IMG/VR virus record: IMGVR_UViG_3300025086_000110
Location: 1 to 34,514 of that record
Direction: 5' to 3' (one strand)
DNA from: a virus
Length of the DNA: 34,514 nucleotides
This document shows, piece after piece, positions 165-34,514 of the stretch; positions within the stretch are counted from its first letter, which is position 1, and the number at the start of each line of letters is the position of its first letter. Position numbers and translations under genes: made by a program. The notes under the pieces were generated by a model. The model saw nothing but the letters and a program-made list of their open reading frames with translations. It searched no databases and was not told the DNA's origin.

Positions 165-201
165 ATTGTTCTCCTTGTGTTTGTGTTAGTATCATAATTA
201 T

Positions 202-810: not shown

Positions 811-817
811 TATGATT
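763..817. repeat. Exact 55-base repeat, matching the last 55 bases of the window
   Basis: Bases 763-817 equal 34,460-34,514. They encode the first 16 residues of fibre paralogues A and B and the few bases before the start. The match begins just after two differing bases (762 versus 34,459) and continues exactly to the window end. Confidence 0.95.
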
Positions 818-2013: not shown

Positions 2014-2022
2014 TTTTTACTC

Positions 2023-3854: not shown

Positions 3855-3863
3855 TTAAAACTC

Positions 3864-4229: not shown

Positions 4230-4254
4230 TTATATCTCCTCTATCCTTTTACTC

Positions 4255-10381: not shown

Positions 10382-10382
10382 C

Positions 10383-11294: not shown

Positions 11295-13548
11295 CGTTTG
11301 TAACTAGATTTGGGTATAACGATAAAACAGTTAAGGGTAAAGGTTGAGTTTGTCTAACAAAGATAAACCCATCTGTTTCATAGTTTCCTCTAAACTCTAT
11401 CTCCTTATCTCCTGTAAATACAGGTATTGCAGTGTCCATATCATCAGCAGATGATCTAAAAGGTATTCTTTCCATATTACTTAGATCAGGTCCAACTTCT
11501 ACACCAACGCTTTCAAATAATCTTAATGAAATATCATATATTCTTTTTGTTTTACCTTGTGATGTACCATTAGCAGCTCCTGCATCTAATCTCATCGTTT
11601 GTAGTAAAGATGTATAAGACAAACCTACTTTGACTTTAGTAGATGATCGATCCAAAGTTATAGCTCCTGAACTTACAGTCTTGTCAGGATGTGTTGAGCC
11701 ATCAGCTAAAATCGATACAGTCTGACCTTCTAAATGTTCTAATCCTGTAATCGTTGTTGTGGCACTACCACTATAATCAAGTTGTGAATCTAAAAAATTA
11801 AATGTCGTATTATCTGTTTCTGTAAAATCATAATTATTTAAATATTCTACATATCTTCTTGTAACACTATTAATGGTTCTTTTTACAATAACATAAACTT
11901 GATACTCAGTATCGTCTGTAGGTATAACAGCTACGCTTTCACAAACTGCATTACCTGAACCAAAACTACCACCAAAAATTTGTCTATGCCAAGCTGTAAC
12001 TTCTTGTTCTCTTTGATAGGTTAAGCCAATTAACTCACCATCATTTCTTGTCATCCAAACAATCTGATTAGGCTCTTGTTGATATGCCATCTGTGTTATA
12101 CCACCTTCAGTAATATGTTCTGCAAGGATTGTCATATCAGGTGCAAGGTAACCATCAACGTCAAAGTTATAAGCTAGTTCTCTAATCTTTCTTTTTGCTC
12201 TTTGTAAAAAGAGAGTTGCATTACCTGCTGAGATAGCATCGACATTTGCTGCACCATGATTAGATTGTTTTTTAATTAATATGTTTGTAGGTGTAATAGC
12301 AACATCTGTCCCTCCTCCTGATACAGTAAACTCACCACCAGCTGTTCCAACGATTAAAGTTCTTGTTGCTGTCATAAATCTAATGGCATTTACTTGGTTA
12401 GATGCAATGGTATAAATAATAGCATCATCATCAGCTATCGTTCCGCCAATGTTTGCATCCATGTTTTCATAATCACCTGATCTTGAAAAAAATAAAGTTT
12501 GAGGTTCATTGCTTGTACCTGCAAAAACTAATCTTTGTTCAAAGAAAGTTACAGAGGATGGATGACCTGTTGTATCTGAAAAAGAACCTAGCCTCCAATC
12601 TGCTGTAGCACTTGCACCTGATAAAGCTGTTATAATTGTAATTGTTGCATTTGTTGTATCTGTAACTCCAGTTATCTTTGCATAACCGCCATTAAGAAAA
12701 ACAAATCTACCAACGTCTGTTGAAAGAAAACCTGATCCACTATTTATTCCTGTTACCGCAGAAGCAACTAAAGATATTCCTGTGCCTACTGCTGATTGAC
12801 CAGGATTTAAAGTTGTGTCTGTTGTATTTGCATCTTGCATTGGTCCTTTGGTAAAATCAACATCAGTCAAAGTCCAAGAGGTATGACCTGTTCTTGAAAG
12901 TTTTTCTACTTCGTGATTAGGATGAGTTATATACATCACGTCAGCAGACTGTGCATATTTAATATCAAATAGTTCTGCTGTTAAATATGGAGTAGATATT
13001 TCAAAAACTCTATTCGCTACACCGCCTGAAGCATAAGCAGTAAAACCTGTACCATTGATATTTGTGCCATCAACATCTGTAATCTCAAATGTATTTGTTG
13101 TTTTGTTTGCAACTAAATATCTTTTATTATTAAGTTCTGTCATACCTGCAACACTTGTAATAGATATTTCATCACCATTACTATAGCCATGACTTGTTGC
13201 TGTAATAACAACTGGATTAGCTTGAGTTGCTCCACTTATTGTTTTATCGCCTTCTAATATCTGACCATTATCTTTATAGAAACGAATATACTGATTACCA
13301 AACTCCATCATATAAGTTTGTGTTGTAGAAAATTCAAAAGGTATTAATCTTGTTTTAGCTGCACTACTTTTTACTTCAGCTACAAAACGTGAACCTGATC
13401 TTCTTGCTGCTGAACCATGAGGATAAATAATCATGTTCTCTAAAGTCTTACAGCCTGAAGAATATTTATTTAAATCATTACGACCATCGAGTCTTGGTGA
13501 TAATTCACCGCCAGTGAAGTTAGTTAATTGAACTGCAACTCTTGCCAT
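11287..13548 (-). CDS. Tail tubular protein B (753 aa)
   Basis: Recognisable as the T7 gp12-like nozzle protein by its N-terminus: F-T-G-G-E-L-S-P-R-L-D-G-R-x-D-L-x-K-Y around residues 11-29, then C-x-x-L-E-N-M-I-I-Y-P-H-G-x-A-x-R-R-S-G-S-R-F-V, and T-T-Q-T-Y-M-M-E-F-G-N-Q-Y-I-R-F-Y. Further on come W-x-L-G-S-F, G-H-P-S-S-V-T-F-F-E-Q-R-L-V-F-A-G and S-R-S-G-D-Y-E-N-M. The length is in the usual range. It forms the distal tail tube and lies three bases after tail tube A. Later strand-rich segments (residues about 230-330) may be an inserted domain. Confidence 0.92.
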   Translation of the reverse strand: MARVAVQLTNFTGGELSPRLDGRNDLNKYSSGCKTLENMIIYPHGSAARRSGSRFVAEVKSSAAKTRLIPFEFSTTQTYMMEFGNQYIRFYKDNGQILEGDKTISGATQANPVVITATSHGYSNGDEISITSVAGMTELNNKRYLVANKTTNTFEITDVDGTNINGTGFTAYASGGVANRVFEISTPYLTAELFDIKYAQSADVMYITHPNHEVEKLSRTGHTSWTLTDVDFTKGPMQDANTTDTTLNPGQSAVGTGISLVASAVTGINSGSGFLSTDVGRFVFLNGGYAKITGVTDTTNATITIITALSGASATADWRLGSFSDTTGHPSSVTFFEQRLVFAGTSNEPQTLFFSRSGDYENMDANIGGTIADDDAIIYTIASNQVNAIRFMTATRTLIVGTAGGEFTVSGGGTDVAITPTNILIKKQSNHGAANVDAISAGNATLFLQRAKRKIRELAYNFDVDGYLAPDMTILAEHITEGGITQMAYQQEPNQIVWMTRNDGELIGLTYQREQEVTAWHRQIFGGSFGSGNAVCESVAVIPTDDTEYQVYVIVKRTINSVTRRYVEYLNNYDFTETDNTTFNFLDSQLDYSGSATTTITGLEHLEGQTVSILADGSTHPDKTVSSGAITLDRSSTKVKVGLSYTSLLQTMRLDAGAANGTSQGKTKRIYDISLRLFESVGVEVGPDLSNMERIPFRSSADDMDTAIPVFTGDKEIEFRGNYETDGFIFVRQTQPLPLTVLSLYPNLVTNDG

Positions 13549-13551
13549 GTA

Positions 13552-14133
13552 TTAGAACCTCGAATTGATAAACGTATCAGCTCCAATAACATCCGCCATT
13601 CCTTTTTCAGGGTTCATGTTTTGACCCTCTGTTGAATCTACAAATCTAGCTTCTTTTAATTTCTGTTGAAACAAATCATACATATTTTTAGCTACAGGAT
13701 TTGAAGAGGTTACAGCATAAGCAATGTCAGCAGCTAAAGCAGCTGATAAAGTTTCTCTTAATAATTCATCATATTCATTAGGGTCAGTAACTCTTGAAAC
13801 ATATAAAATTTTCATTGAAGAATTGTCTGTTAATATTTTCCTACCTTCAATTTTATAATCTGAATCAAAATCTAATATGGTTAAAACTCTTAAACAATCA
13901 GCAGGTAAAGTAAATTGTGATGTGAAACCCCATGCTGGAGTATCGCTATCTGCTGCTAGTTCTACTCTTTTTTGTAAAGAATTCCATGGATGTGATCTGA
14001 ATACTGAATCTCTTATTTGTGTAAATCTAGCATTGCATAGTCTAGCATTTTTAGAATCTTCAGTTAAAGTTATGATTGTTGATGCTCCTAACTGATTTAA
14101 TGCTCCGTTACAAATGTCCACTATTGATGCCAT
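13552..14133 (-). CDS. Tail tubular protein A (193 aa)
   Basis: A T7 gp11-like head-tail adaptor: N-terminal I-C-N-G-A-L-N-Q-L-G, R-L-C-N-A-R-F, R-D-S-V-F-R-S-H-P-W-N-S-L-Q-K-R and F-T-L-P-A-D-C-L-R-V are the usual gatekeeper motifs. The length matches the family. It starts right after the intrinsic terminator at 14,163-14,186, with no ribosome site of its own that I can see before the ATG, so its expression should depend on read-through or a promoter in the 30 AT-rich bases between. Confidence 0.9.
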   Translation of the reverse strand: MASIVDICNGALNQLGASTIITLTEDSKNARLCNARFTQIRDSVFRSHPWNSLQKRVELAADSDTPAWGFTSQFTLPADCLRVLTILDFDSDYKIEGRKILTDNSSMKILYVSRVTDPNEYDELLRETLSAALAADIAYAVTSSNPVAKNMYDLFQQKLKEARFVDSTEGQNMNPEKGMADVIGADTFINSRF

Positions 14134-14162
14134 AATATTTTATATTCTAAAATTTAAATAAA

Positions 14163-14186
14163 AGATAGGGGATTTCTCCCCTATCT
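14163..14186 (-). terminator. Intrinsic terminator between head and tail genes
   Basis: Perfect 10-base-pair stem (AGATAGGGGA with TCCCCTATCT) around a 4-base loop that reads GAAA on the transcribed (leftward) strand, followed on that strand by TTTATTTAAATTTT. This has the form of an intrinsic terminator. It sits after the capsid and decoration genes, so it should let capsid mRNA accumulate above tail mRNA. Confidence 0.85.
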
Positions 14187-14197
14187 CTATAACATGA

Positions 14198-14677
14198 TTA
14201 ATTAACTACGTATGAAATATTCCAAGACATAGTACCGATAGTACCACCAGCAGCTGCCATTGTAGCAGCTATGTAGTAATATCCTCCAGGGTCTGTAGAA
14301 TCACCAGCTAATTCAAACATTTTTTTACCAGCAGTGTCGATGTCAGCAGCTTCGAATCTAACGTCTGCCATTGCAGCAGCATCAGCTACCGCAGTTGCAA
14401 AAACATCTTCATCTTTAACTGTTCCATCAGTTTTGTATATGCCGACATTGAAAGTACACGATCCACCTAATGTGTCTGAACCAATGAATAAACTTGGCAC
14501 AGCAGCATTTGAAGGGATCGGTGCTAACATAACAACATCGTCATTATCACTATCACCTGCTGCTAATTCAACTGTTCCATGTGCTGTTCTTAAAACACCA
14601 TGTAGTTCAGCTGAATTGTTAGCAACTTGAGGGGATGCCTCAAAGTTTGCAACTAGGTCTGTATTTTTAGTTCCCAT
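14198..14677 (-). CDS. Putative capsid decoration or head protein (159 aa)
   Basis: Starts MGTKNTDLVANFEASPQVAN and is rich in Ala, Gly, Asp and Thr. It has the arrangement L-A-P-I-P-S-N-A-A-V-P-S-L-F-I-G, then F-N-V-G-I-Y-K-T-D-G-T-V and E-D-V-F-A-T-A-V, a beta-sandwich-like small protein I recall downstream of capsid genes in several podoviruses. It sits 18 bases after the capsid stop and just before a terminator, so it should be made at capsid-like levels. A GAGGAT ribosome site precedes the ATG. A head-surface role is inferred from position and acidic composition. Confidence 0.65.
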   Translation of the reverse strand: MGTKNTDLVANFEASPQVANNSAELHGVLRTAHGTVELAAGDSDNDDVVMLAPIPSNAAVPSLFIGSDTLGGSCTFNVGIYKTDGTVKDEDVFATAVADAAAMADVRFEAADIDTAGKKMFELAGDSTDPGGYYYIAATMAAAGGTIGTMSWNISYVVN

Positions 14678-14695
14678 AACTTTTATCCTCCTCTA

Positions 14696-15550
14696 TTACG
14701 ATTCTGTACATTGTACTTCAACAACTTTATCTTCTTCCATTCTAGTTGCTCCGAAAGATGCACAGTAGTAAACTTGTGTAGCATACCCTTTGTCTGATCT
14801 TTCATCGATTCTAGCCATAACGTCTTTACCTACGCCAAGAGCAATTCCGTCTTGAGCATAAGCTATGCACGATCTTGTTGTGCCGTCTAAAGATAGTCTG
14901 TTTGATACAATGAAGTTAAAACCAAGAAACGAATTGATCTCACCATTTGCCAATGCTTTGACAGTGTTGAAATCTGAACTTGTTACCTCAGTTGTTCCAA
15001 GTAAATCAGTGATCTGTTTAGGACCAACAATGATAAATCTTGGGATTGATGGATCAACACTATTTAAATCAAGAGTCTGTTTTGCAGTTCTTAATTTTGC
15101 AATAGTTAAACCAGCAGAACCATGTACGATTTGATTCGCATTAGCTGTGCTAGTTGATCCTGTTTCACCAGTGAACGCTGTTCCTAAAGCGGCACTAATG
15201 ATTTCATCATCCATAGCTCTACCCATAGCAAACGCTGCAGCTTGAGCATAAGATGATGTTGGGTCGATTAAAAGACGTACTTTGTCTTGTTCGTCAATCA
15301 AATCAGCAAATTCATAATCCACTAGAGATACCCTTCTTCTTGCATGAGGAGTATCAATCTGAGGAGTATCAGAATGTCTGCTCGTTCTTTTTACAGCAGT
15401 CACTGATCCAACTTGATCGAAGAAAGCATTTTTTCCTACAACGCTTTCAACTCGTACTTTATCTCTTAACAACGAACCCATTTGTTGTGACAACATTTGA
15501 ATGTTAGCAGAGTACTGCTGAACAAATGCTGTAGTTACTTGTGATGACAT
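14696..15550 (-). CDS. Major capsid protein (284 aa)
   Basis: Position (after scaffold, before decoration protein), length and content point to an HK97-fold capsid. Landmarks: N-terminal A-F-V-Q-Q-Y-S-A-N-I-Q-M-L-S-Q-Q, an E-loop-like region with D-T-P-H-A-R-R-R-V-S-L-V-D-Y-E, the helix D-K-V-R-L-L-I-D-P-T-S-S-Y-A-Q-A-A-A-F-A-M-G-R, and late strands including C-I-A-Y-A-Q-D-G-I-A-L-G-V-G and D-K-G-Y-A-T-Q-V-Y-Y-C-A-S-F-G-A-T-R. The ATG has a GGGAGA ribosome site. Codon choice appears less AT-biased here than in the small genes. The preceding 93 bases can form competing hairpins. Confidence 0.88.
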   Translation of the reverse strand: MSSQVTTAFVQQYSANIQMLSQQMGSLLRDKVRVESVVGKNAFFDQVGSVTAVKRTSRHSDTPQIDTPHARRRVSLVDYEFADLIDEQDKVRLLIDPTSSYAQAAAFAMGRAMDDEIISAALGTAFTGETGSTSTANANQIVHGSAGLTIAKLRTAKQTLDLNSVDPSIPRFIIVGPKQITDLLGTTEVTSSDFNTVKALANGEINSFLGFNFIVSNRLSLDGTTRSCIAYAQDGIALGVGKDVMARIDERSDKGYATQVYYCASFGATRMEEDKVVEVQCTES

Positions 15551-15643
15551 ATTAGTCTCCCATTGTTAAGTTTAGTTATAATCAGAAAGGTTCTCTGTCG
15601 AGAGACAGGCATCTCTTGGATTTAAAGTCTTTTAGACTAGAGT
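15551..15643 (-). promoter_or_regulatory. Structured leader of the capsid gene
   Basis: In a region where genes otherwise touch or overlap, these 93 non-coding bases lead into the capsid start. On the leftward strand they contain two mutually exclusive 5-bp hairpins around 15,592-15,608 (CTGTC/GACAG with loop TCTC, or TCTCT/AGAGA with loop CGAC), a hairpin at 15,626-15,638 (AGTCT/AGACT), and a 14-base inverted repeat at 15,633-15,646 that overlaps the upstream stop codon. A weak promoter-like pair (TCGACA and TATAAC, 15 bases apart) is also present. Transcript stabilisation, translational control or a capsid promoter are all possible. Confidence 0.5.
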
Positions 15644-15817
15644 CTATTCCCTCTTGTCAGTAGGGTTCTTTCGAATTGTCCCACCTTTTATCCATTTATA
15701 ATATTTATCACAAATTGGCAAGGGGTCTTTTTTTTGATACTCCGTACCTGTTTCTTTTACGATACGGAGTATTTCTAATCTTACTTCTTCTTGATTTAAA
15801 TGATCGTTACTTGGCAT
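15644..15817 (-). CDS. Small conserved-looking protein between scaffold and capsid (57 aa)
   Basis: Reads MPSNDHLNQEEVRLEILRIV and ends N-P-T-D-K-R-E. Residues 10-25 form an amphipathic helix, then come P-L-P-I-C-D-K-Y-Y-K-W-I-K-G-G. The ATG lies inside the end of the scaffold gene (11-base overlap), which suggests coupled translation. The frame is open over all 57 codons. No known family is recognised. Its place between scaffold and capsid suggests a head-assembly helper or a minor virion protein; this is inference only. Confidence 0.7.
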   Translation of the reverse strand: MPSNDHLNQEEVRLEILRIVKETGTEYQKKDPLPICDKYYKWIKGGTIRKNPTDKRE

Positions 15818-24800: not shown

Positions 24801-25190
24801 CTATATGTTGTGGGGTGTTGCATATTTACAACAGTCCTTATGATCCTCTTGTAATTGGTATAGTTCACGCACCCATTCATCCTCATTCATATACTCATAA
24901 TCGCTATTAGAGACATGGAGACGCTTGATCCTGAAAGCTAAGCTACCCTGACCTACCTTCTTATAGAAAACTAAAAAACCAGGTACTCTAAGGCGGTCTG
25001 AGAGGGTCTTTACTAGCGTTGTAGCTTTGTATTTCTGACCCCGATCGTAGCAAGTCTCAAGGATAGCAAGAGGTTCATAGCAATCAGGACAGCACTCAAT
25101 ACTATCTACATCTATCATAGCTATACCTTCATATTGTCTATGCCAATCGTTATACAATCCATTGCTGAAAGCATAAGTCCATCTAGCCAT
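24801..25190 (-). CDS. Cysteine-containing protein, possibly nuclease-like (129 aa)
   Basis: Begins MARWTYAFSNGLYNDWHRQY, then D-V-D-S-I-E-C-C-P-D-C-Y-E-P-L-A-I-L-E-T-C-Y-D-R-G-Q-K-Y-K-A-T-T and V-P-G-F-L-V-F-Y-K-K. This D-x-D-S ... C-x-x-C ... L-x-E-T ... Q-x-x-K-A-T pattern occurs in small phage proteins I recall from distant phages; the spaced acidic residues and lysine look like a degenerate PD-(D/E)XK core, but the usual E-x-K is not intact. A pair of Cys near the C-terminus (D-C-C-K-Y) may complete a metal site. Overlaps the SET gene by eight bases. Confidence 0.6.
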   Translation of the reverse strand: MARWTYAFSNGLYNDWHRQYEGIAMIDVDSIECCPDCYEPLAILETCYDRGQKYKATTLVKTLSDRLRVPGFLVFYKKVGQGSLAFRIKRLHVSNSDYEYMNEDEWVRELYQLQEDHKDCCKYATPHNI

Positions 25191-25473
25191 TAGGTTTATA
25201 TAAACTATAAGTTAGTGTTAATTCTTCATCATTCATAATATCTTTCGTTGTTTTTAAATACCATTTATTATTGACCTTTACTCTTACACAATTAGATTGT
25301 TCAGAATGATTTATAAAACCACCTAGAGGTGTACGATAAAGTATATCATCAACCTCAATGTGTGAGATACCTAGCTCAGTATCTTTTTTTATTTCTTTTG
25401 TAGCAAACAAACCTAGACCATTAATAGAACTAGGTTTAATAGTGCAGAAAATTGGTAGTGGGTTATAATTCAT
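25183..25473 (-). CDS. SET-domain protein, candidate lysine methyltransferase (96 aa)
   Basis: All landmark motifs of a minimal SET domain are present: N-G-L-G-L-F-A-T (residues 18-25, cofactor loop), F-I-N-H-S-E-Q-S-N-C (53-62, the N-H-S-x-x-x-N-C pseudoknot) and D-E-E-L-T-L-T-Y (82-89, with the catalytic-type Tyr 89). There is no pre-SET or post-SET part. SET enzymes transfer methyl groups from S-adenosylmethionine to protein lysines; a target could be a host ribosomal or polymerase protein, but nothing in the sequence shows which. It lies in the Cro-controlled leftward run, with start and stop overlapping its neighbours. Confidence 0.85.
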   Translation of the reverse strand: MNYNPLPIFCTIKPSSINGLGLFATKEIKKDTELGISHIEVDDILYRTPLGGFINHSEQSNCVRVKVNNKWYLKTTKDIMNDEELTLTYSLYKPNG

Positions 25474-27218: not shown

Positions 27219-27551
27219 GTGAGTAAGATAATTGATATAAAATTATATCATGTAAAAAATAAAATAAATCTTTTAAAAGTAGTTTCTTCTACATTAAAAG
27301 AAAAAGGAACTGTTCATTGTTTAAAACATATAGAAGTTTTAATTGAAAAACTTTTGATTGATAAAGATAAATTAAAAAAAAAACAAGACTCAAAAGAATC
27401 TATCAAAAGATTAAATTCTATAGGTTGTTCAACGGCTATCATAAGCAATACAAGAGCTAGTGAATACCAAGAACCTATCAATAAACTAGCATATAGAGTG
27501 GTAGACAAAGCTAAATTTTTAAGAAGAAAGGGGTTTGTAAATGAAAGATAA
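27219..27551 (+). CDS. Helical hypothetical protein (110 aa)
   Basis: GTG start at 27,219, just after a GGGGG ribosome site at the end of the exonuclease gene. The sequence is Lys/Leu/Ile-rich and helical (V-L-I-E-K-L-L-I-D-K-D-K-L-K-K-K) with I-G-C-S-T-A-I-I-S-N-T-R-A-S-E-Y near the centre. It overlaps the annealing-protein start by 11 bases, which ties it to the recombination module. No domain recognised. Confidence 0.6.
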   Translation: MSKIIDIKLYHVKNKINLLKVVSSTLKEKGTVHCLKHIEVLIEKLLIDKDKLKKKQDSKESIKRLNSIGCSTAIISNTRASEYQEPINKLAYRVVDKAKFLRRKGFVNER

Positions 27552-28149
27552 AATAGATAGAGTAAATGAGTTATGCAGAAGAGACGGAGTATATAAAAAC
27601 CTTACAACAGGTCAGACAACTGTTTCTTTGTGGAGCAAGATAAAATATTTTAGACAAGTCTTTGGTGATCAACTTGGGTTTGATGTATCAGTTATGGAAC
27701 AAGAAGATTATTACATTGCTAAGTGCAAGATCATCGCTTATGATCCTGAACGAGTGTTAGCTACAGGACATTATAAACAATTTAAAAAGAGAAACGGCAG
27801 CTACATACAAGGTGCTTTGCCTATGGCAGAAAGTTTCTCTATTTCACGAGCTTTAAGTTTTCTTGGTGTGTTGGATAAAGACATTACCTCCCTCGAAGAG
27901 TTAGAATCTTTAGGTATACCAACCACCAAGGAAGCTAAAGACACCCTAAGTACAAAGGGTGTACCCGTCAAACAAATCGTAGAGGAGTTAAAGAAAGCTC
28001 CACATGAAACAAGATTAAATCATCTTCGTTATCATGTGTATAGACCTACATTTGTTGAGACACAAAAAAATCATCCAAGAGATTTTAAATTGCTAGACAA
28101 TGCTTTCAAATCTAGGATGAACTTAATAACTAAACAGGAGAAAATATAA
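27541..28149 (+). CDS. Single-strand annealing protein, Rad52/ERF-like (202 aa)
   Basis: Follows an AAGAAAGGGG ribosome site. Residues 30-112 hold the core: W-S-K-I-K-Y-F-R-Q-V-F-G-D, a strand region I-A-K-C-K-I-I-A-Y-D-P-E-R-V-L-A-T-G-H-Y, and A-L-P-M-A-E-S-F-S-I-S-R-A-L-S-F-L-G, which matches the A-x-x-x-x-E-x-x-x-x-x-R-A-L-x-F-L-G signature of ERF/Rad52-like annealing proteins. C-terminal part (about 125-200) is helical and basic. It should anneal strands exposed by the exonuclease, supporting concatemer formation and recombination among related phages. Confidence 0.78.
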   Translation: MKDKIDRVNELCRRDGVYKNLTTGQTTVSLWSKIKYFRQVFGDQLGFDVSVMEQEDYYIAKCKIIAYDPERVLATGHYKQFKKRNGSYIQGALPMAESFSISRALSFLGVLDKDITSLEELESLGIPTTKEAKDTLSTKGVPVKQIVEELKKAPHETRLNHLRYHVYRPTFVETQKNHPRDFKLLDNAFKSRMNLITKQEKI

Positions 28150-28560: not shown

Positions 28561-28770
28561 ATGACTGATGATGTATATAAAAAACAAATAGGCGGTGATC
28601 ATTATTCCATGCCTATTCAACCAGCAGAATTTATAAACAAGAACAACATTCCGTTTGCCGAAGGCAATGCTATTAAATATTTATGTAGGCATTCAAAACG
28701 AGGAAAAAAACAAGACTTGCAAAAGGCTATCCATTATATAGAAATGGCAATCGAAAGAGACTATGATTGA
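28561..28770 (+). CDS. DUF3310 family protein (69 aa)
   Basis: The family pattern is complete: Y-K-K-Q-I-G-G-D-H-Y near residues 5-14, then P-I-Q-P-A-E-F-I, N-N-I-P-F-A-E-G-N-A-I-K-Y-L-C-R-H-S-K-R-G-K-K-Q-D-L-Q-K-A, and I-H-Y-I-E-M-A. DUF3310 proteins are frequent in phages and have been linked to nucleotide metabolism by annotation, without proof that I know of. No Shine-Dalgarno site precedes its ATG; the structured element above ends only eight bases before it. The end overlaps the next start. Confidence 0.88.
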   Translation: MTDDVYKKQIGGDHYSMPIQPAEFINKNNIPFAEGNAIKYLCRHSKRGKKQDLQKAIHYIEMAIERDYD

Positions 28771-29011
28771 CAAAACGGAAAAAAAGTATATAAGATACCG
28801 AAATGGCGAAGCAAACTTTACTTATATAGAAAAGTTTGATGACGTTGAGAAGGCTGCTGACCCACAGAGTAAAGGTGAGTTTGTAGAAGTAAAAGTTAAT
28901 AATATTAAATTTGACTTTACAAAAGTGAAGGAGGAAAATGGTCGAGAACCAAATGGTAGAGATCAAGAAGAACCTGCAAAAGACGAAGGACTTGCAAAGA
29001 AAGAAAAGTGA
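28763..29011 (+). CDS. Acidic hypothetical protein (82 aa)
   Basis: Begins MIDKTEKKYIRYRNGEANFT inside the end of the DUF3310 gene. The first 55 residues look folded (E-F-V-E-V-K-V-N-N-I-K-F-D-F); the last 27 are charged and disordered (K-E-E-N-G-R-E-P-N-G-R-D-Q-E-E). The disordered tail is exactly the part overlapped by the next gene in another frame. Function unknown. Confidence 0.6.
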   Translation: MIDKTEKKYIRYRNGEANFTYIEKFDDVEKAADPQSKGEFVEVKVNNIKFDFTKVKEENGREPNGRDQEEPAKDEGLAKKEK

Positions 29012-29114
29012 ATTGTATGTCAGACATTTGCAGAAAGCTAACAAGTTGAAGGTTGAAAGTTATAATCTTCATTTGAAAGTTGCTGATCTTACAGACAAAC
29101 TAATGAGAGCTTAG
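28938..29114 (+). CDS. Small coiled-coil protein overlapping its neighbour (58 aa)
   Basis: Preceded by AAGGAGG, one of the best ribosome sites in the window, which is why I accept it despite a 74-base overlap with the preceding gene. It starts MVENQMVEIKKNLQKTKDLQ and is helical to the end (V-E-S-Y-N-L-H-L-K-V-A-D-L-T-D-K-L). Basic with leucine heptads, so likely a dimer. It could work with the DnaA-like protein that follows, but this is only adjacency. Confidence 0.65.
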   Translation: MVENQMVEIKKNLQKTKDLQRKKSELYVRHLQKANKLKVESYNLHLKVADLTDKLMRA

Positions 29115-29117
29115 CTC
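29106..29117 (+). repeat. Second copy of AGAGCTTAGCTC
   Basis: The same 12 bases occur at 28,471-28,482, both times at a gene end: right after a stop codon there, across the stop codon here. Each can fold as GAGC-TTA-GCTC. They may be transcript-end hairpins or recognition sites. Confidence 0.6.
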
Positions 29118-29140
29118 TTATAAAATAAAAAACAACAAAG

Positions 29141-29156
29141 AGTTGTGAGAACAACT
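29141..29156 (+). promoter_or_regulatory. Hairpin with GNRA loop before the DnaA-like gene
   Basis: AGTTGT and ACAACT pair perfectly around GAGA, a stable tetraloop type. It stands just before the AAGGGA ribosome site of the next gene, so it may set its translation level. Confidence 0.55.
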
Positions 29157-29166
29157 AAGGGAAGCT

Positions 29167-29709
29167 ATGCACTTTGAAATAATAGATAAGAAAAAAAAAC
29201 AAATTAAGCTAGGCATGAAAGCTATCATGTATAGAGAACTATCACCAAGAGAACTACAGATATACAGAACAGGATTTAAAAATGGCTATCGTATGGCAGA
29301 AGCTCATCTTGTTTTTAAAAGCCAACAACTAGCAGATAGAATGAAGATGAAAGATGATCGTGAACAAATAAAAAAAAGAGTAGATGATAAACATCCTGTT
29401 GGCTATGAAACATTTAGTAATATTGTTAGAGTTGTAGCTAATCATTTTTGTATTAGTCCTCAAGAAGTTTATAGTAGAAGAAGGTTAGCTTATATTGTAA
29501 AGCCGAGAAGTGTTATTATAAATTATTGCCTGGAACATTTTAATATATCAACACCAAAGCTAGGAATGTTTTTTAATTTTGATCACTCAACTGTCATTCA
29601 TCATAGAAGGCAGAAAGTAAAGCAAGTTGGTATATGGAAACCTTTAGAATTAGTTTGGCAAGACTATGAAAAAATTAAAAAGGAATTAGTTAAGTCCTTG
29701 CGTAGTTAG
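29167..29709 (+). CDS. DnaA domain-IV-like DNA-binding protein (180 aa)
   Basis: Residues 80-150 match the C-terminal DNA-binding domain of bacterial DnaA: V-V-A-N-H-F-C-I-S-P-Q-E-V-Y-S-R-R-R, then V-K-P-R-S-V-I-I-N-Y-C-L-E-H-F and the signature F-D-H-S-T-V-I-H-H-R-R at about 138-148. There is no AAA+ ATPase domain. The first 75 residues are basic and helical. It could bind DnaA boxes to start phage replication with host enzymes or to block host initiation. It lies at the end of the rightward replication run, overlapping the convergent gene by 20 bases. Confidence 0.8.
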   Translation: MHFEIIDKKKKQIKLGMKAIMYRELSPRELQIYRTGFKNGYRMAEAHLVFKSQQLADRMKMKDDREQIKKRVDDKHPVGYETFSNIVRVVANHFCISPQEVYSRRRLAYIVKPRSVIINYCLEHFNISTPKLGMFFNFDHSTVIHHRRQKVKQVGIWKPLELVWQDYEKIKKELVKSLRS

Positions 29710-29935
29710 GTCTTTTACCTTTACGACTTCTTCTTTCAGCAGATTTTTTTCTTGATACAGCAGCTCGTCTTTGACTTGGCGACATGGCTCTTGCTTTAGA
29801 TAAAGGTACACATTTAGGATAGTTTCTTCTTTTTTCACCTTTACTACGACCACATTTAGGAAAGCCACCACCTTTCTTTGGGTTAGCAATATCTACCCAG
29901 TTAGCTCTGACCCATGATCGCAAACCTTTTGACAT
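29690..29935 (-). CDS. Basic small protein, DUF5872-like (81 aa)
   Basis: Has W-V-R-A-N-W-V-D-I near the start, F-P-K-C-G-R-S-K-G-E-K-R-R-N-Y-P-K-C-V-P-L-S-K-A-R-A-M-S and a tail with K-K-S-A-E-R-R-S-R-K-G-K-R. The C-G-R ... Y-P-K-C-x-P-x-S-K-A centre is characteristic of DUF5872, a family I associate with marine viruses. Strongly positive; two cysteines may bind metal. It is last in a leftward set of tiny basic proteins. DNA compaction inside the capsid is a reasonable but unproven idea. Confidence 0.78.
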   Translation of the reverse strand: MSKGLRSWVRANWVDIANPKKGGGFPKCGRSKGEKRRNYPKCVPLSKARAMSPSQRRAAVSRKKSAERRSRKGKRPNYART

Positions 29936-30069
29936 TATCTTTTCTTTTTTCTTTTAGGTTTTATTCTACCACTACATACACCAGCAGCGTACATATTGGC
30001 ATACGCTGATGGATATACTTTAAATTTACGTTTAGCAGCAGCTTTACCTTTAGCACAAAGTTTAGCCAT
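29935..30069 (-). CDS. Basic mini-protein (44 aa)
   Basis: Sequence begins MAKLCAKGKAAAKRKFKVYP and goes on S-A-Y-A-N-M-Y-A-A-G-V-C-S-G-R-I-K-P-K-R-K-K-K-R. The C-A-K-G-K-A-A-A-K-R-K-F-K-V-Y-P-S-A-Y-A-N element is one I recall from many marine phage genomes. It has two cysteines and a very basic tail. It joins the next gene by TAATG and overlaps the previous one by eight bases. Confidence 0.75.
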   Translation of the reverse strand: MAKLCAKGKAAAKRKFKVYPSAYANMYAAGVCSGRIKPKRKKKR

Positions 30070-30205
30070 GTCTTTTCTGTACTGTAAACTTTGCCATCTT
30101 TACAGCTCCTTTGTGTGGTTTGTATGCACCTTTCATTAATTTAAATGAACTACCTTTTTTCATCCAATGAAAACCTCTTGGTGCTTTAACTGATTTAGTT
30201 GTCAT
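30062..30205 (-). CDS. Basic mini-protein (47 aa)
   Basis: Begins MTTKSVKAPRGFHWMKKGSS and ends A-V-K-M-A-K-F-T-V-Q-K-R-H-G. Two G-x-H/x-K motifs (P-R-G-F-H-W-M-K-K-G, Y-K-P-H-K-G-A) and no acidic residue at all. It starts in an ATGA overlap. Likely nucleic-acid binding by charge; family not named. Confidence 0.7.
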   Translation of the reverse strand: MTTKSVKAPRGFHWMKKGSSFKLMKGAYKPHKGAVKMAKFTVQKRHG

Positions 30206-30330
30206 GTTTTTTTTCTACCTTTTTTTAATGCTACAAAGTCTGCTCTTGTAATTCTATCTCTTGGAAAAGCTACACGAGCTATCTTCATCTGCTTTGCAGT
30301 ATATTTTTTTTTACCTGTTTTCTTTGGCAT
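30202..30330 (-). CDS. Basic mini-protein (42 aa)
   Basis: Begins MPKKTGKKKYTAKQMKIARV, then A-F-P-R-D-R-I-T-R-A-D-F-V-A-L-K-K-G-R-K-K-T. The K-Q-x-K-I-A-x-x-A-x-P-x-D-x-I-T-x-A-D-F-x-A-L pattern is one I recall from short proteins of other aquatic phages. TAATG and ATGA overlaps at its two ends place it firmly in the series. Confidence 0.72.
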   Translation of the reverse strand: MPKKTGKKKYTAKQMKIARVAFPRDRITRADFVALKKGRKKT

Positions 30331-30401
30331 TATTTCTTCTTCTTGTTTTTTTTCTTCTTAGCTTTTTTAGCCATAGGCTTCTTCATTTTCTTTCCGTACA
30401 T
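30330..30401 (-). CDS. Poly-lysine mini-protein (23 aa)
   Basis: A very short frame (MYGKKMKKPMAKKAKKKKNK and three more lysines) but with the excellent ribosome site AGGAGAT six bases ahead and a TAATG join to the next gene. Fourteen of 23 residues are lysine. It overlaps the end of the zinc-type gene before it. At this size it is either a DNA-condensing peptide or a leader for the next frame. Confidence 0.6.
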   Translation of the reverse strand: MYGKKMKKPMAKKAKKKKNKKKK

Positions 30402-30588
30402 TTTTATCTCCTATATTTATATATTTATCGAAGCAACTTTCACCACGATTATAATGATGACAAAAATACTTCTTCTCTGCATTTATAATCCATCCTCCTT
30501 CATTACTCAAGAGTTGTCTTTTGCACATAAGACAATACCCACAGACTATAGTTATATTCTTACGTGACCAAGTTTTTTTCTTTACCAT
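30367..30588 (-). CDS. Small zinc-type protein (73 aa)
   Basis: I start it at ATG 30,588, which overlaps the previous stop by seven bases; an upstream start would sit deep inside the neighbour. Protein MVKKKTWSRKNITIVCGYCL has Cys at 16, 19 and 22, then W-I-I-N-A-E-K-K-Y-F-C-H-H (Cys 43, His 44-45) and E-S-C-F-D-K-Y (Cys 52). The C-x-x-C ... C-H-H ... C set predicts one zinc site. Function unknown. Confidence 0.65.
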   Translation of the reverse strand: MVKKKTWSRKNITIVCGYCLMCKRQLLSNEGGWIINAEKKYFCHHYNRGESCFDKYINIGDKNVRKENEEAYG

Positions 30589-30830
30589 TTTTTGCAAGAC
30601 CAATAACGAGCAGTAAGCTTGTTTGTTGCTGTAGCACAACGATGTCTAGCTCTGAAAGATTTACGAGCTTTGGGATTTGATTTACGAATAGCCATGTTTG
30701 CGTCTCCGTATCGAATCAGTTTAACTCTACTACCTGACTTTGCAAGAACCGCAAACTTCTTTGTTTTTGTTCTATCATTCTTAGGTTTGTTGTACCCTGA
30801 AAATTTTTCACCTCTATACGTTATAGCCAT
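30582..30830 (-). CDS. Basic protein, DUF6321-like (82 aa)
   Basis: Starts MAITYRGEKFSGYNKPKNDR, with F-A-V-L-A-K-S-G-S-R-V-K-L-I-R-Y-G-D and the highly typical tail R-K-S-F-R-A-R-H-R-C-A-T-A-T-N-K-L-T-A-R-Y-W-S-C-K-K-W. I recall this tail from proteins of many marine phages (DUF6321 in my memory; the number should be treated with care). Basic, with two cysteines. It lies two bases after the membrane-type gene 30,833-31,036. Confidence 0.78.
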   Translation of the reverse strand: MAITYRGEKFSGYNKPKNDRTKTKKFAVLAKSGSRVKLIRYGDANMAIRKSNPKARKSFRARHRCATATNKLTARYWSCKKW

Positions 30831-30832
30831 AA

Positions 30833-31036
30833 CTAATCATCCTTTGAAATTCTTATAATCTTACCATCTTTTACTTCTGCTTTTACTTTACTGCAAACAT
30901 AACTTACTCTTGCACCACTATTTCTAGCTGCAATTCTTTTTTTTTCCAAACATTTAGATACGTTAGGCATAAGCGTATGTTCTTTTAACACAGCAGGTTC
31001 ACCTAAAAACATGAGTAATGCAATAACAGCTTCCAT
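30833..31036 (-). CDS. Small secreted or membrane-linked protein (67 aa)
   Basis: Begins MEAVIALLMFLGEPAVLKEH, a short hydrophobic segment that could be a signal, followed by S-K-C-L-E-K-K-R-I-A-A-R-N and R-V-S-Y-V-C-S-K-V-K-A-E. Two Cys could form a disulphide outside the inner membrane. One base is shared with the gene before it. Family recalled from marine phages but unnamed. Confidence 0.65.
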   Translation of the reverse strand: MEAVIALLMFLGEPAVLKEHTLMPNVSKCLEKKRIAARNSGARVSYVCSKVKAEVKDGKIIRISKDD

Positions 31037-31395
31037 TAATGATTACCATTCTTTCTTACTTTATCTTTGAGCTGTTCAAGACTATCTTTAATTTTTTCAA
31101 TATCTTTCATAGCATAGTTTATGTTGACATTATTATTTCTCATCGTCTCCATTTCTTTTTGTATATTTTCTACTTGTCCTGCTATATGTTCTAATAACAT
31201 AAATTGTTCCTGGTCAGTAGGTAATTGCTCTGACTTTTTTAAAAGATCAGCTTGATGTAATTCTCTGCTAGTCTCCAAACTAGTTAGTCTTGCTGTTATC
31301 TCGGTGTAAGCAAAAATTCCTGCAGCCACAGCACCACATAAAAATAAAAGATTACGAATAGGTAAACTTATAACAGAATTTTCATTTACTTTCAT
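31036..31395 (-). CDS. Membrane-anchored coiled-coil protein (119 aa)
   Basis: Start taken at ATG 31,395 (MKVNENSVISLPIRNLLFLC), ten bases after GGAGGAG; a TTG start seven residues upstream is less likely. One transmembrane helix at about 11-30, then a long coiled coil (E-H-I-A-G-Q-V-E-N-I-Q-K-E-M-E and I-E-K-I-K-D-S-L-E-Q-L-K-D-K-V). This design and the lysis neighbourhood recall i-spanins, though the topology could differ. It overlaps its upstream neighbour by four bases. Confidence 0.65.
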   Translation of the reverse strand: MKVNENSVISLPIRNLLFLCGAVAAGIFAYTEITARLTSLETSRELHQADLLKKSEQLPTDQEQFMLLEHIAGQVENIQKEMETMRNNNVNINYAMKDIEKIKDSLEQLKDKVRKNGNH

Positions 31396-31607
31396 TGTGG
31401 TTCTTCTCCTCCGCAAATATAACCTATAACTTTCTTACCTTTGTAAGTGTGGTAATAATGATTTGACATAAATGTCTTTTTCTTTTTTTCATGCACTACT
31501 ACATTAGTATTAAACCAACTACTACAGCTTGTAAATATCTCAAAGGTATCTTGCTTTATATCACCACCAAAAGTCAAGTATAACAGGGTTATCATTATGG
31601 GTTTCAT
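31392..31607 (-). CDS. Small exported protein (71 aa)
   Basis: Start at ATG 31,607 with AAGGA ahead of it and a TAATG join. MKPIMITLLYLTFGGDIKQD is a probable signal peptide, then F-E-I-F-T-S-C-S-S-W-F, H-Y-Y-H-T-Y-K-G-K-K-V-I-G-Y-I-C-G-G. The two cysteines bracketing an aromatic-rich body suggest a disulphide-held periplasmic protein. Possibly an outer partner in lysis, but there is no lipobox. Confidence 0.6.
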   Translation of the reverse strand: MKPIMITLLYLTFGGDIKQDTFEIFTSCSSWFNTNVVVHEKKKKTFMSNHYYHTYKGKKVIGYICGGEEPQ

Positions 31608-31750
31608 TAATGTCCTTGCGAGTTGTAGGCTTTCCAAGTACGTTTCTTATGCTTGTTCATAGATGACATTTTGGGTCGTCTACCTAGACTGGTTTTTTTT
31701 GGTATTCTTTCGTGTGGTAATTTTTCTAAACTTATTTTTCTTTTTGCCAT
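31607..31750 (-). CDS. Basic mini-protein with S-S-M-N-K-H-K motif (47 aa)
   Basis: Preceded by AAGGAT, starts MAKRKISLEKLPHERIPKKT and ends S-L-G-R-R-P-K-M-S-S-M-N-K-H-K-K-R-T-W-K-A-Y-N-S-Q-G-H. The G-R-x-P-x-M/T-S-S-M-N-K-x-K-x-R-x-x-K-x-Y motif is one I recall across marine phage genomes. A further member, by character, of the basic set at 29,690-30,830. Confidence 0.75.
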   Translation of the reverse strand: MAKRKISLEKLPHERIPKKTSLGRRPKMSSMNKHKKRTWKAYNSQGH

Positions 31751-31823
31751 ATCCTTGTTGTGCTTTCAATCTTACCTCTATACCAAAGGCTTGAGAAAAC
31801 ATTTTTGTTATTTGATTACTCAT
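31680..31823 (-). CDS. Overlapping basic mini-protein (47 aa)
   Basis: Starts at an ATGA overlap with the holin stop: MSNQITKMFSQAFGIEVRLK, then Q-Q-G-Y-G-K-K-K-N-K-F-R-K-I-T-T-R-K. The last 71 bases are shared with the next gene in another frame. The overlap start supports translation, but the C-terminal half is the less reliable part. Confidence 0.5.
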   Translation of the reverse strand: MSNQITKMFSQAFGIEVRLKAQQGYGKKKNKFRKITTRKNTKKNQSR

Positions 31824-32200
31824 TTGCTAAAGTTTTTTATTTCACTGGCTTTAATACCATAGATTGCTGCAACAACACTGACCCACAAACCAACTAGCCA
31901 CCAAGGCATTGATTGAAGTTTCTCAAAAAAAATATCCATCTTTTTTTCTATTTCAGGATCGTCTGCAAACACAGAGTAGGCTAACATGAAGATGGGGGTG
32001 GAGAGTACGATAAGTACGAACTCATCTTTCCAGTCTCCCTTCTGATGCTCGAATACTTTACCTTTATATTCTATCTCACCCCTCCTCATCTTCTCTGCAT
32101 GAAGTAGTCTAGCTTCTGACAAGGCTTCTTTTGTTTTTTGTTTATCAGAATACAGTTTAGCAGCTGTTTTAATTCCCATACCTAATACGTTAAACCACAT
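31820..32200 (-). CDS. Holin-like membrane protein (126 aa)
   Basis: An N-terminal amphipathic region (M-W-F-N-V-L-G-M-G-I-K-T-A-A-K-L-Y), a charged helix (E-A-R-L-L-H-A-E-K-M-R-R-G-E-I-E-Y), and two membrane helices at about 57-77 (F-V-L-I-V-L-S-T-P-I-F-M-L-A) and 99-118 (W-W-L-V-G-L-W-V-S-V-V-A-A-I-Y-G). This arrangement is that of a common marine phage holin group. It lies one base after the endolysin start region, so a role in timing lysis fits. Confidence 0.75.
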   Translation of the reverse strand: MWFNVLGMGIKTAAKLYSDKQKTKEALSEARLLHAEKMRRGEIEYKGKVFEHQKGDWKDEFVLIVLSTPIFMLAYSVFADDPEIEKKMDIFFEKLQSMPWWLVGLWVSVVAAIYGIKASEIKNFSK

Positions 32201-32201
32201 A

Positions 32202-32672
32202 TTATTCTAACCAAGGTTTATAAATTACCTTGCCTTCTTCTCTCATAGCTCTCAATGATTGATTTCTATTACTGTTAGTCGAATACGAACAATGTATCCA
32301 GCCTGACGTAGGTTCATTATCTTTATAAAATTCTAAAATTAATTGGTCAAATTCTAAATCTGATTTAATCCAAAGAGCTAGTTCTCTATTATCTACACCA
32401 GGTATTTCAAAGTCTGCTGCCGCAGCTCCTTCGTCTGCAACGTGCTGACTGGTAATACTGCTTCCTATTTCTGTGCAAAGTTGAGCTGTACGAAATCCAC
32501 TAGATATAATTAAAGGTTTGTCAAAGTGTGATCTAACTGGTTGTAATATATTTACTGCTAGTGCTTTTAAATTTTCAATCTGTTGAGGATTAGGGTTGTT
32601 GTTGATACCCTTACGTTCTGCAACTTGCGACTTGGTTAGTTCATCAAGAGTTATGTTAGCTGTAAGTTTCAT
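32202..32672 (-). CDS. Endolysin, M15 peptidase (156 aa)
   Basis: The zinc site is visible: S-Q-H at 75-77, D87 in A-A-A-A-D-F-E, and H127 in S-G-W-I-H-C-S. S-G-F-R-T at 58-62 is also typical. This is the M15_3 group that cuts peptide cross-bridges in peptidoglycan. The start shares four bases with the nuclease gene and the stop is followed at once by the holin start, a compact lysis unit. No signal peptide, so it depends on the holin for release. Confidence 0.9.
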   Translation of the reverse strand: MKLTANITLDELTKSQVAERKGINNNPNPQQIENLKALAVNILQPVRSHFDKPLIISSGFRTAQLCTEIGSSITSQHVADEGAAAADFEIPGVDNRELALWIKSDLEFDQLILEFYKDNEPTSGWIHCSYSTNSNRNQSLRAMREEGKVIYKPWLE

Positions 32673-32971
32673 TTGTTATAATATATTTTGACTTTTAATT
32701 TTTTTTGCAGTTCTGTCAATCCTCTATTTATCAATGATCCTGCCTTTCTAACATACCTATCTTTAGGTGTATAGTCAGATTTTCTATAGTTTGCAGTCTT
32801 TACATCGTAGGCTTGATATTTACCTGTGTTAATATCTAATATAACCATATCTATGGGACCAATACCCATGGCTGGTACGAATACAATTTTATCAGGGTCT
32901 GATGCAAATTTAGCTTGTGCGATGAGTTCATTATATAGTCCAGTTGAAGCTGTTTTACTACGCTTAGCCAT
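32669..32971 (-). CDS. Small PD-(D/E)XK nuclease, resolvase-like (100 aa)
   Basis: Y-N-E-L-I-A-Q-A-K-F (13-22) provides the early Glu, then G-P-I-D-M-V-I-L-D and Y-D-V-K-T (acidic residue followed by V-K) complete the E ... D ... D-x-K order of small resolvase-type nucleases. The rest, K-D-R-Y-V-R-K-A-G-S-L-I-N-R-G-L-T, is basic. A junction-cutting enzyme would help resolve concatemers before packaging. Its place between endolysin and a membrane protein is unusual but it is co-translated with both by small overlaps. Confidence 0.75.
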   Translation of the reverse strand: MAKRSKTASTGLYNELIAQAKFASDPDKIVFVPAMGIGPIDMVILDINTGKYQAYDVKTANYRKSDYTPKDRYVRKAGSLINRGLTELQKKLKVKIYYNK

Positions 32972-33233
32972 TCCATTTAAAGTAGCCTAATAACGTAGCT
33001 ACAAGTCCACCAAGAACAACAAAGAAAGCAACTGCACCTTTACCTTTGTTCATGTCAGCACGTAAATCTTTTATATCTTTACGCATCTCATCTATGGCTT
33101 TGAATAAAGTTTTCATACGTTCAGCACAGACTTTCTCATGATAAGAAATTCTAACGCTGTTGTTTTTTTCTGCGTACTCTTTAATCTCTTTTGCACTGAC
33201 AGAAGATTTTTTTTGTTTTCTTTTTCCAACCAT
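32964..33233 (-). CDS. Single-pass membrane protein with coiled coil (89 aa)
   Basis: Very basic N-terminus, a coiled coil M-K-T-L-F-K-A-I-D-E-M-R-K-D-I-K-D-L-R-A-D-M-N, and a C-terminal membrane helix (about 66-85: A-V-A-F-F-V-V-L-G-G-L-V-A-T-L-L-G-Y-F). This is the shape of haemolysin XhlA-like or auxiliary holin proteins. It lies directly upstream of the nuclease and endolysin. Confidence 0.65.
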   Translation of the reverse strand: MVGKRKQKKSSVSAKEIKEYAEKNNSVRISYHEKVCAERMKTLFKAIDEMRKDIKDLRADMNKGKGAVAFFVVLGGLVATLLGYFKWNG

Positions 33234-33294
33234 CTTTTAAATCTTTCCAAAATATTTTTATTTCTTCTACTAAAGTTTTAAAAAATTTATCCAT
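33181..33294 (-). CDS. Overlapping small helical protein (37 aa)
   Basis: MDKFFKTLVEEIKIFWKDLK from ATG 33,294, with TAGGAGT as ribosome site. Amphipathic first half, basic second half that overlaps the next gene by 53 bases in another frame. An amphipathic peptide beside lysis genes could act on the membrane. Weak support beyond the ribosome site and spacing. Confidence 0.5.
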   Translation of the reverse strand: MDKFFKTLVEEIKIFWKDLKDGWKKKTKKIFCQCKRD

Positions 33295-33302
33295 AATTAC
33301 TC

Positions 33303-33515
33303 CTATGATTCTTTAACCTCTTCGCATTTAAAATTTACTAACACTTTATTTCTATTTACTATACCACTATCTATTTTATTTATCTCTTCAATAGATCGTT
33401 GATAACCTGCGTTAGCACATTCTTTCCAAGAATTAAAGACAAAACTATCATAAATTGCTGGTAAGCAATTAAGATGTACAGCTGAACAAATATTTAAAAT
33501 CAAAATAAACTTCAT
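33303..33515 (-). CDS. Small exported cysteine-containing protein (70 aa)
   Basis: MKFILILNICSAVHLNCLPA forms a signal-like start with two Cys, then S-F-V-F-N-S-W-K-E-C-A-N-A-G-Y-Q-R-S and V-N-F-K-C-E-E. The C ... C-L-P ... S-W-x-x-C-x-x-A-G-x pattern is one I recall from other marine phages. Probably periplasmic with disulphides. A hairpin (TCTGAT/ATCAGA, 33,515-33,532) covers the region before its ATG, and no ribosome site is visible there. Confidence 0.65.
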   Translation of the reverse strand: MKFILILNICSAVHLNCLPAIYDSFVFNSWKECANAGYQRSIEEINKIDSGIVNRNKVLVNFKCEEVKES

Positions 33516-33563
33516 CTGATTTTACTATCAGATATTAACTTCTATTGATATTGATATTAATGA

Positions 33564-33863
33564 CTAGGGTTTTGTTGGAAAGGTAACAGCATCAACATCA
33601 GCAGCTGTTGCGTCATCAGCCACAGTACCAGGCAAGTCTCTCAACTCCTGTCTGTAAGTTGTCATCGCATCAGTCATTGTAACATCAGATAAAGCATAGT
33701 AGTCAGTTTCTTTTAACAAATTATTTCTTTTTGTTCTAAGATTAGCCATAGCTCTATCTTTTGCACCAGCTTCCCAAGCCGCTTCTTCTGCGTCTCTTGC
33801 TGCTTCTTCTTCTGCTGTGAGTTTGATTCTCTCACCATTTACCATTTTATATCTATCTGCCAT
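33564..33863 (-). CDS. Tail-assembly chaperone-like protein (99 aa)
   Basis: Complete version of the gene cut off at the left edge. It starts MADRYKMVNGERIKLTAEEE after AAGGAGTAA, has a helical E-E-A-A-R-D-A-E-E-A-A-W-E-A-G centre, then R-N-N-L-L-K-E-T-D-Y-Y-A-L-S-D and T-Y-R-Q-E-L-R-D-L-P-G-T and ends F-P-T-K-P. The R-N-x-L-L-x-x-T-D ... Y-R-Q-x-L-R-D-L-P signature is that of short phage tail-assembly chaperones (Phage_tail_APC type). It is paired with the fibre gene immediately upstream. Confidence 0.85.
   Translation of the reverse strand: MADRYKMVNGERIKLTAEEEAARDAEEAAWEAGAKDRAMANLRTKRNNLLKETDYYALSDVTMTDAMTTYRQELRDLPGTVADDATAADVDAVTFPTKP
33697..33823. repeat. Exact 127-base direct repeat, copy 2
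   Basis: Identical to bases 1-127. It covers the conserved body of the chaperone gene. Beyond it the two versions diverge through the chaperone start and most of the fibre gene. Confidence 0.95.
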
Positions 33864-33898
33864 ATTTACTCCTTATTGTTGTTTGTTATCATAATTAT

Positions 33899-34507
33899 TT
33901 ATAAAACTCCATACATATCTACTGTACCTGAATCTATGTTTCCTGAACTAAATTTAAAATCTAAAGCTGTTATTGGAGCTGTCGTATTAAAATATCCACC
34001 TACAGAATCATCTTGTGCGTGGTTATCTTCATTATTACCACTTGTTCTTGCAATAAAATTTTTTACAAACACAGAACTTGATGGTTCAAAAAGATGTAAA
34101 AAGCCAGAAACACAAGCATCATTATCATTACTTACTTGATATGTAAGAGGTTGATAATCTGTACTTTGTGCTAAATCATAAGAACTTTTATATGACAACC
34201 CTGTTTCTGAGTCACTTTCGCTATGGTAAGCATCAAAAAATGTAGTTGTTTTTGTTATATTATACGAATGACTTGAGGAATCATCAGACCCATTAAAACT
34301 AAATACAACATTATCTGTTGCTGGGTGTATATTATTAAAAAAAAATATATACTCTTTATAGGTGCTATCTATACCTGATGTAATGCTTAAACTTGATGAT
34401 GAACTAGCAGTTGATCTTGATATAAATTTTAAATTACCTAGTCCTGTTATGCTACCTACTGCTGTTGCATCTTTTACTGCTCTGTTATTTAATTTAATTA
34501 TACTCAT
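33899..34507 (-). CDS. Tail-fibre tip paralogue B (202 aa), alternative version of 202-810
   Basis: Same length as paralogue A and the same start up to residue 16 (MSIIKLNNRAVKDATA) and end (S-G-N-I-D-S-G-T-V-D-M-Y-G-V-L). In between, residues about 65-125 and 150-170 differ strongly: for example F-S-F-N-G-S-D-D-S-S-S-H-S-Y replaces the A version. The shared scaffold Y-I-F-F-F-N-N-I-H, S-G-F-L-H-L-F-E-P-S-S-S-V-F-V-K-N-F-I-A-R is kept. Variation limited to surface-type loops is what receptor choice would select. It is followed by its own chaperone gene, as A is. Confidence 0.85.
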   Translation of the reverse strand: MSIIKLNNRAVKDATAVGSITGLGNLKFISRSTASSSSSLSITSGIDSTYKEYIFFFNNIHPATDNVVFSFNGSDDSSSHSYNITKTTTFFDAYHSESDSETGLSYKSSYDLAQSTDYQPLTYQVSNDNDACVSGFLHLFEPSSSVFVKNFIARTSGNNEDNHAQDDSVGGYFNTTAPITALDFKFSSGNIDSGTVDMYGVL

Positions 34508-34514
34508 TATGATT

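Follow-up and report, generated by a model that had tools for sequence, protein, structure and literature searches.

The window, by which we mean the whole 34,514-bp stretch of viral DNA analysed here (IMG/VR record IMGVR_UViG_3300025086_000110), carries at its two ends two versions, A and B, of a locus composed of a fibre-tip gene and a tail-assembly chaperone gene. Version A is followed by further fibre genes, whose positions (slots) are numbered upstream from the chaperone, and the conserved downstream anchor of the locus is a peptidase M15 gene. The features are as follows.

1–127: 127-bp repeat, left copy; last 127-mer common to A and B, and branch vertex if k = 127
1–164, minus strand: chaperone version A, first ~54 codons (MPRYKMVNGERVQL...), cut at base 1; 98 aa when joined to 33564–33696
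202–810, minus strand: slot-1 fibre-tip protein, version A, 202 aa; phrog_14820, E 2.7e-68
763–817: 55-bp repeat, left copy, at the fibre gene start; exact match
810–1424, minus strand: slot-2 fibre-tip paralogue, 204 aa; phrog_14820, E 4.4e-67
1411–2013, minus strand: slot-3 fibre-tip paralogue, 200 aa; phrog_14820, E 5e-79
2023–3114, minus strand: longer fibre protein, 363 aa; phrog_14820 match in the C-terminal half
3114–3854, minus strand: fibre protein, 246 aa; weak C-terminal phrog_14820 match
32202–32672, minus strand: peptidase M15, anchoring the conserved order on its downstream side, placed as in HTVC010P and HTVC034P
33564–33863, minus strand: chaperone version B, complete, 99 aa; tail-assembly chaperone PF16778, E=1.5e-11
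33697–33823: 127-bp repeat, right copy, within the chaperone gene; exact match
33899–34507, minus strand: slot-1 fibre-tip protein, version B, 202 aa; phrog_14820, E 4.7e-69; predicted galectin-like beta-sandwich
34460–34514: 55-bp repeat, right copy; the contig ends 55 bases past the last A/B difference

The phrog_14820 profile, which represents a family without known function, covers the whole protein in version A, version B, slot 2 and slot 3. Elsewhere in the window, a 96-aa ORF (25183–25473) matches part of a SET domain (PF00856, E=4e-11), and a 180-aa ORF (29167–29709) contains a DnaA C-terminal DNA-binding domain (PF08299); annotated DnaA-like genes are also found in HTVC034P and Skadi-1.

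Comparison of the two window ends

Self-comparison of the window showed that bases 1–127 are identical to 33697–33823, with the first mismatch at base 128/33824, and that 763–817 are identical to 34460–34514. These exact repeats, which are far beyond chance, had been reported in an earlier sequence-only reading of the window and were confirmed base for base. That reading had also described the same two genes in the same order with divergent sequence between the repeats. The gene content and order stand, while the extent of the divergence is corrected here: the whole terminal overlap (817 vs 818 bp) is 76% identical by blastn, and similarity extends well past the exact repeats (98% over 1–158 and 89% over 616–817). 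Because the repeats are flanked by this further high similarity, the divergent segment is only ~0.45 kb long and corresponds mainly to residues ~60–200 of the slot-1 fibre.

The A and B fibre proteins share 62% identity: the first ~50 residues are almost the same, the centre diverges, and the two versions differ throughout by indels and substitutions. The A/B comparison gave dN 0.34 and dS 0.61, values that are uninformative if the segment is recombinant. The slot-2 (810–1424) and slot-3 (1411–2013) paralogues are 41–49% identical to A and B at the protein level, which is below the A–B identity, and protein comparison found no long stretch of A or B closely matching either paralogue; there is therefore no support for an origin of A or B by gene conversion from the window's own slots 2 or 3. 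A search for the version A protein in GTDB genomes returned 53 pattern matches, none of which was confirmed.

Junctions and probable circular closure

Joining base 33696 to base 1 restores a complete chaperone of 98 aa, whereas joining 34514 to 1, as a tandem arrangement of the two ends would require, leaves a 54-aa chaperone that is stopped at once; both outcomes had been anticipated from the sequence. An independent contig from a different sample, IMGVR_UViG_3300007963_000762 (L157, also L006; 6,240 bp), is identical to the window over 33483–34514 and then passes directly into 818–5861, over which it shows two mismatches only (4621 and 4633). Each shared block is present once in L157, with version B adjoining base 818 and no version A, and the proposed 34514-to-818 junction thus exists as assembled single-copy sequence in an independent sample. 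Simple in-place divergence of A and B is ruled out by the same comparison, given 76% identity inside the overlap vs 2 mismatches in the adjoining 5 kb. L157 also differs from the window at 31 of 155 bases over 33328–33482, within a 70-aa ORF adjoining the chaperone, and this segment has the appearance of another short exchanged stretch.

Version A is found on the same backbone in IMGVR_UViG_3300006737_000651 (L160, 13,561 bp), which matches window positions 5–13564 at 99.96%. Five of its 6 mismatches fall within 13480–13556 at the far end of L160, a cluster that may reflect either a variant or an artefact of the contig's end. Together the L160 and L157 contigs indicate that the same backbone carries either A or B. 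On the other side of the locus, IMGVR_UViG_3300006921_001336 (L127, also L244) matches 28567–33718 at 100%. The 33696-to-1 junction with version A is not spanned by any independent contig, L160 starting at base 5 and L127 stopping at 33718, and of the five contigs recovered by an exact search with bases 1–58, none carries this phage's version A. This junction is supported by the restored chaperone reading frame and by synteny with HTVC010P and HTVC034P, as judged from the assembled sequences.

These observations support the ~33.7 kb genome, circular or self-overlapping at a variable fibre/chaperone locus, that had been proposed from the window alone, the evidence being L157, the completed chaperone ORF and synteny. 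We conclude with high confidence that the window represents one ~33.7 kb circularly assembling HTVC010P-type podovirus genome plus a second version of its slot-1 fibre/chaperone locus. The data support a circle of ~33,696 bp with an alternative branch of ~0.8 kb, and each genome would carry one slot-1 fibre and one chaperone. The term circular holds for the assembly graph; the virion genome may be linear with terminal redundancy.

Gene order in relatives and alternative arrangements

In HTVC010P and HTVC034P the order is main tail fibre, structural protein, further fibre genes, three ~200-aa fibres, chaperone, small genes and peptidase M15, and the closed-circle window follows the same order in the direction of transcription. 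The terminase of the window is 91% identical to that of IMG/VR record 2595698650 (34,892 bp), and the portal and capsid genes have PHROG matches. On the conserved gene order and these three genes, the window is assigned to the HTVC010P-type pelagiphages; by analogy with its relatives it would have a podovirus virion and a Pelagibacter host.

A real tandem duplication, in which A and B lie side by side in one genome and 34514 is joined to 1, is the best surviving alternative and is nonetheless very unlikely. Fibre paralogues in tandem are normal in this phage group, and one contig (L022) repeats a slot-2/slot-1 pair: its array at 745–3747 consists, in order, of slot 3, slot 2, a chimera that starts as slot 1 and ends as slot 3, slot 2 and slot 1, and lies between exact repeats of 76 and 79 bp. 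Such a chimera is as expected from unequal crossing-over, and the array may have arisen in that way or through an assembly join. However, the L022 repeat keeps its frames intact and excludes the chaperone, whereas the tandem join in the window would truncate the chaperone as described above, and L157 has version B directly at 818 without A. In addition, a chaperone between two slot-1 fibres was found in none of 108 distinct chaperone-plus-fibre arrays in IMG/VR contigs. A second chaperone does occur further upstream of the array in a few contigs (L061, L065, L066 and L070); in near-complete relatives at most one chaperone is recognisable.

Relatives with short direct terminal repeats (125 bp in Skadi, PMC10504331; 107, 101 and 143 bp in three related 34–35 kb records, G003, G004 and G009, respectively) raise the alternative that the window ends are a true physical terminal redundancy whose copies have drifted apart. 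This reading is hardly credible, since terminal repeats are near-identical rather than 76% identical, the overlap ends fall inside two genes, and in L157 the locus is ordinary internal sequence, present in a single version. Two of the three repeats in G003, G004 and G009 hold a mismatch and are invisible to an exact-repeat test. The terminal repeats that close these records speak for the closed-genome reading of the window, as does the circular assembly of nine out of ten Skadi isolates (PMC10504331).

Receptor-binding genes are the usual target of diversity-generating retroelements and invertases. The locus resembles such a gene, and programmed variation could in principle generate A and B within one genome. 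We consider this extremely improbable: the window lacks both a pair of inverted repeats and a second copy resembling a template, a Pfam scan of ten ORFs yielded neither a reverse transcriptase nor an invertase, and A and B differ by indels as well as substitutions throughout. Finally, a linear fragment with unrelated ends and coincidental paralogy, for which the 41–49% identity of the slot-2 and slot-3 paralogues would lead one to expect some similarity, has next to no probability, because it leaves the exact 127- and 55-bp matches and the shared chaperone start unexplained, the gene order is complete round the join, and L157 contradicts it.

The favoured reading of one circularly assembling genome with two versions of the locus has a looser parallel in the near-complete record IMGVR_UViG_3300030095_000481 (G001, 35,371 bp), in which 691–856 matches 35206–35371 at 90% over 166 bp, with the last 86 bases exact. 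The G001 overlap lies at another fibre gene; one side carries a fibre-like gene of 201 aa and the other a homologue of the window's 246-aa fibre gene, and the start of G001 lacks a matching vertex. Among related contigs, ends near the peptidase M15 gene were found at 0.8–1.95 kb on the fibre side in 25 of 58 cases vs 5 of 62 on the other side; this excess was rejected as evidence of breakage at this exact locus, only one such contig having a recognisable end chaperone.

A proposed graph path producing the two ends

The lengths 127 and 55 had been noted as usual assembler word sizes, and both indeed appear in the k list of a published JGI metaSPAdes command (k = 33,55,77,99,127; PMC11584781). 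Taking the window's own assembler to be JGI-like, we infer a graph path consisting of a 33,696-base loop and a 0.8 kb tail. The contig would start at the last k-mer common to A and B, continue through version A and then round the genome, re-enter its start k-mer at 33697, exit through version B and stop at the point where B merges back into shared sequence. At k = 127, 33697–33823 would be the final word that A and B have in common, and a contig leaving through A would begin with this word, which would set the position of base 1. At the right end, a weaker version B would have been extended at the k = 55 stage to the merge point and no further at k = 127. The right overlap of 55 rather than 127 thus needs the extra assumption that the B edge was kept from the k = 55 stage.

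Slot-specific N-termini and probably exchangeable fibre bodies

The relationship between fibre slots was analysed in 72 non-redundant contigs encoding 208 proteins of slots 1–3. For each 24-residue window, the nearest neighbour in another contig was identified, and slot labels were shuffled within contigs as a control, which gave 33–34% same-slot neighbours. Over residues 1–60 the nearest neighbour came from the same slot for 95–98% of proteins, while over residues 61–192 this was so for 38–51% in most windows and for 61–67% at 121–156. The C-terminal residues are also slot-typical, with slot 2 ending mostly in SKS or KDS and slot 3 in KLYGVS or KLYGIS.

Nine cross-slot pairs were found in which the body is 70–90% shared and the N-terminal tag 39–56% shared. 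In contig 3300029319_001272 (L082), an ORF at 2034–2681 carries the version A body behind a different tag (MALNKLKFNSINVTP...) and is positioned directly upstream of that phage's slot-3-tagged gene. At the DNA level, identity between L082 and version A is ~0.8–1.0 per 15 codons in the body (about 90%) and 0.48–0.60 in the tag, with the border near residue 60 and the motif STYKEYIF, which is largely common to the slots. Versions A and B also part near residue 60. Given the slot-specific tags and the occurrence of the A body behind another tag elsewhere, A and B look like recombinational body swaps. We therefore consider it probable, with less assurance than for the closed genome, that the N-terminal tag (residues ~1–60) stays specific to its slot while lectin-like bodies swap between slots and phages, A and B being two slot-1 bodies in a near-clonal population.

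Homologous recombination between conserved blocks would move the bodies, the blocks being the slot-specific first ~60 fibre codons on one side and the chaperone gene on the other. The tags would dock each fibre protein at its tail position, the bodies would choose receptors, with A and B as natural variants of the receptor-binding tip, and the chaperone would fold the fibre bodies. One HTVC034P gene carries a single-strand annealing protein annotation; the corresponding window ORF (27541–28149) gave no family match in Pfam and PHROG searches, and the gene is given no weight in this mechanism.

Predicted structure of the version B fibre tip

Version B was modelled with AlphaFold2 (pLDDT 88.8, pTM 0.83) from an alignment that leaves out one row taken from an annotated phage record; the model is composed of a poorly predicted N-terminal stretch followed by a beta-sandwich. 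Its nearest solved structures are galectin domains and sugar-binding beta-sandwich modules, with Z scores of about 6.5–8.5, which a common fold can give. Galectin domains are among the best matches (Z 6.5–7.5, Foldseek E ~3e-3 to 2e-1), at a level that the common beta-sandwich also reaches. A lectin-like role of the fibre body is plausible on this predicted model.

Discussion

Hypervariable fibre loci are already known in pelagiphages. Variable host-recognition genes were described in this group in 2014 (Mizuno et al., PMC3909814), and Skadi has a hypervariable region at 13,646–15,713, between the main tail fibre and peptidase M15, that contains two ORFs, one of them lectin-like (PMC10504331). 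The locus described here resembles these hypervariable or metaviromic islands (PMC3909814, PMC10504331) in phage group, position, variable host-recognition genes and near-identical backbone. It differs in that the islands are seen as gaps in read recruitment, whereas here there are two concrete versions with their borders and an array of ~200-aa slot-tagged proteins.

A second likeness is to the branched tailspikes TSP1–TSP4 of the Ackermannviridae, which have position-specific conserved N-termini and exchangeable C-termini and recombine through their conserved 5' ends (PMC11414711). In contrast to these tailspikes, which carry XD/TD domains, the proteins of the window are ~200 aa long with a short N-terminal stretch and a beta-sandwich, and their bodies cross slots; the branched complex is a feature of the Ackermannviridae, whereas the window array is known from its genes alone. 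In the literature searched, mostly outside subscription journals, we found no description of the pattern of slot tags and mobile bodies, and nothing on this pelagiphage array in work on tandem fibre paralogues or fibre module shuffling.

As in metagenome contigs closed by direct terminal repeats, the self-overlap of the window marks a closed genome. Unlike direct terminal repeats, it consists of two diverged versions, so that a search for exact repeats misses the closure and a complete genome can be mistaken for a linear one. Records like the window may be read as linear pieces of genomes that are in fact complete, and screening for diverged end overlaps would yield closed genomes, each with one real population variant.

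This assembly side of the finding is ordinary though useful, and the pattern of slot tags and mobile bodies is the more interesting one. It pinpoints the exchanged piece in a very abundant group of marine phages and suggests that a binding body is plugged in behind a fixed address tag, in which case the evolution of host range in pelagiphages would become testable body by body.
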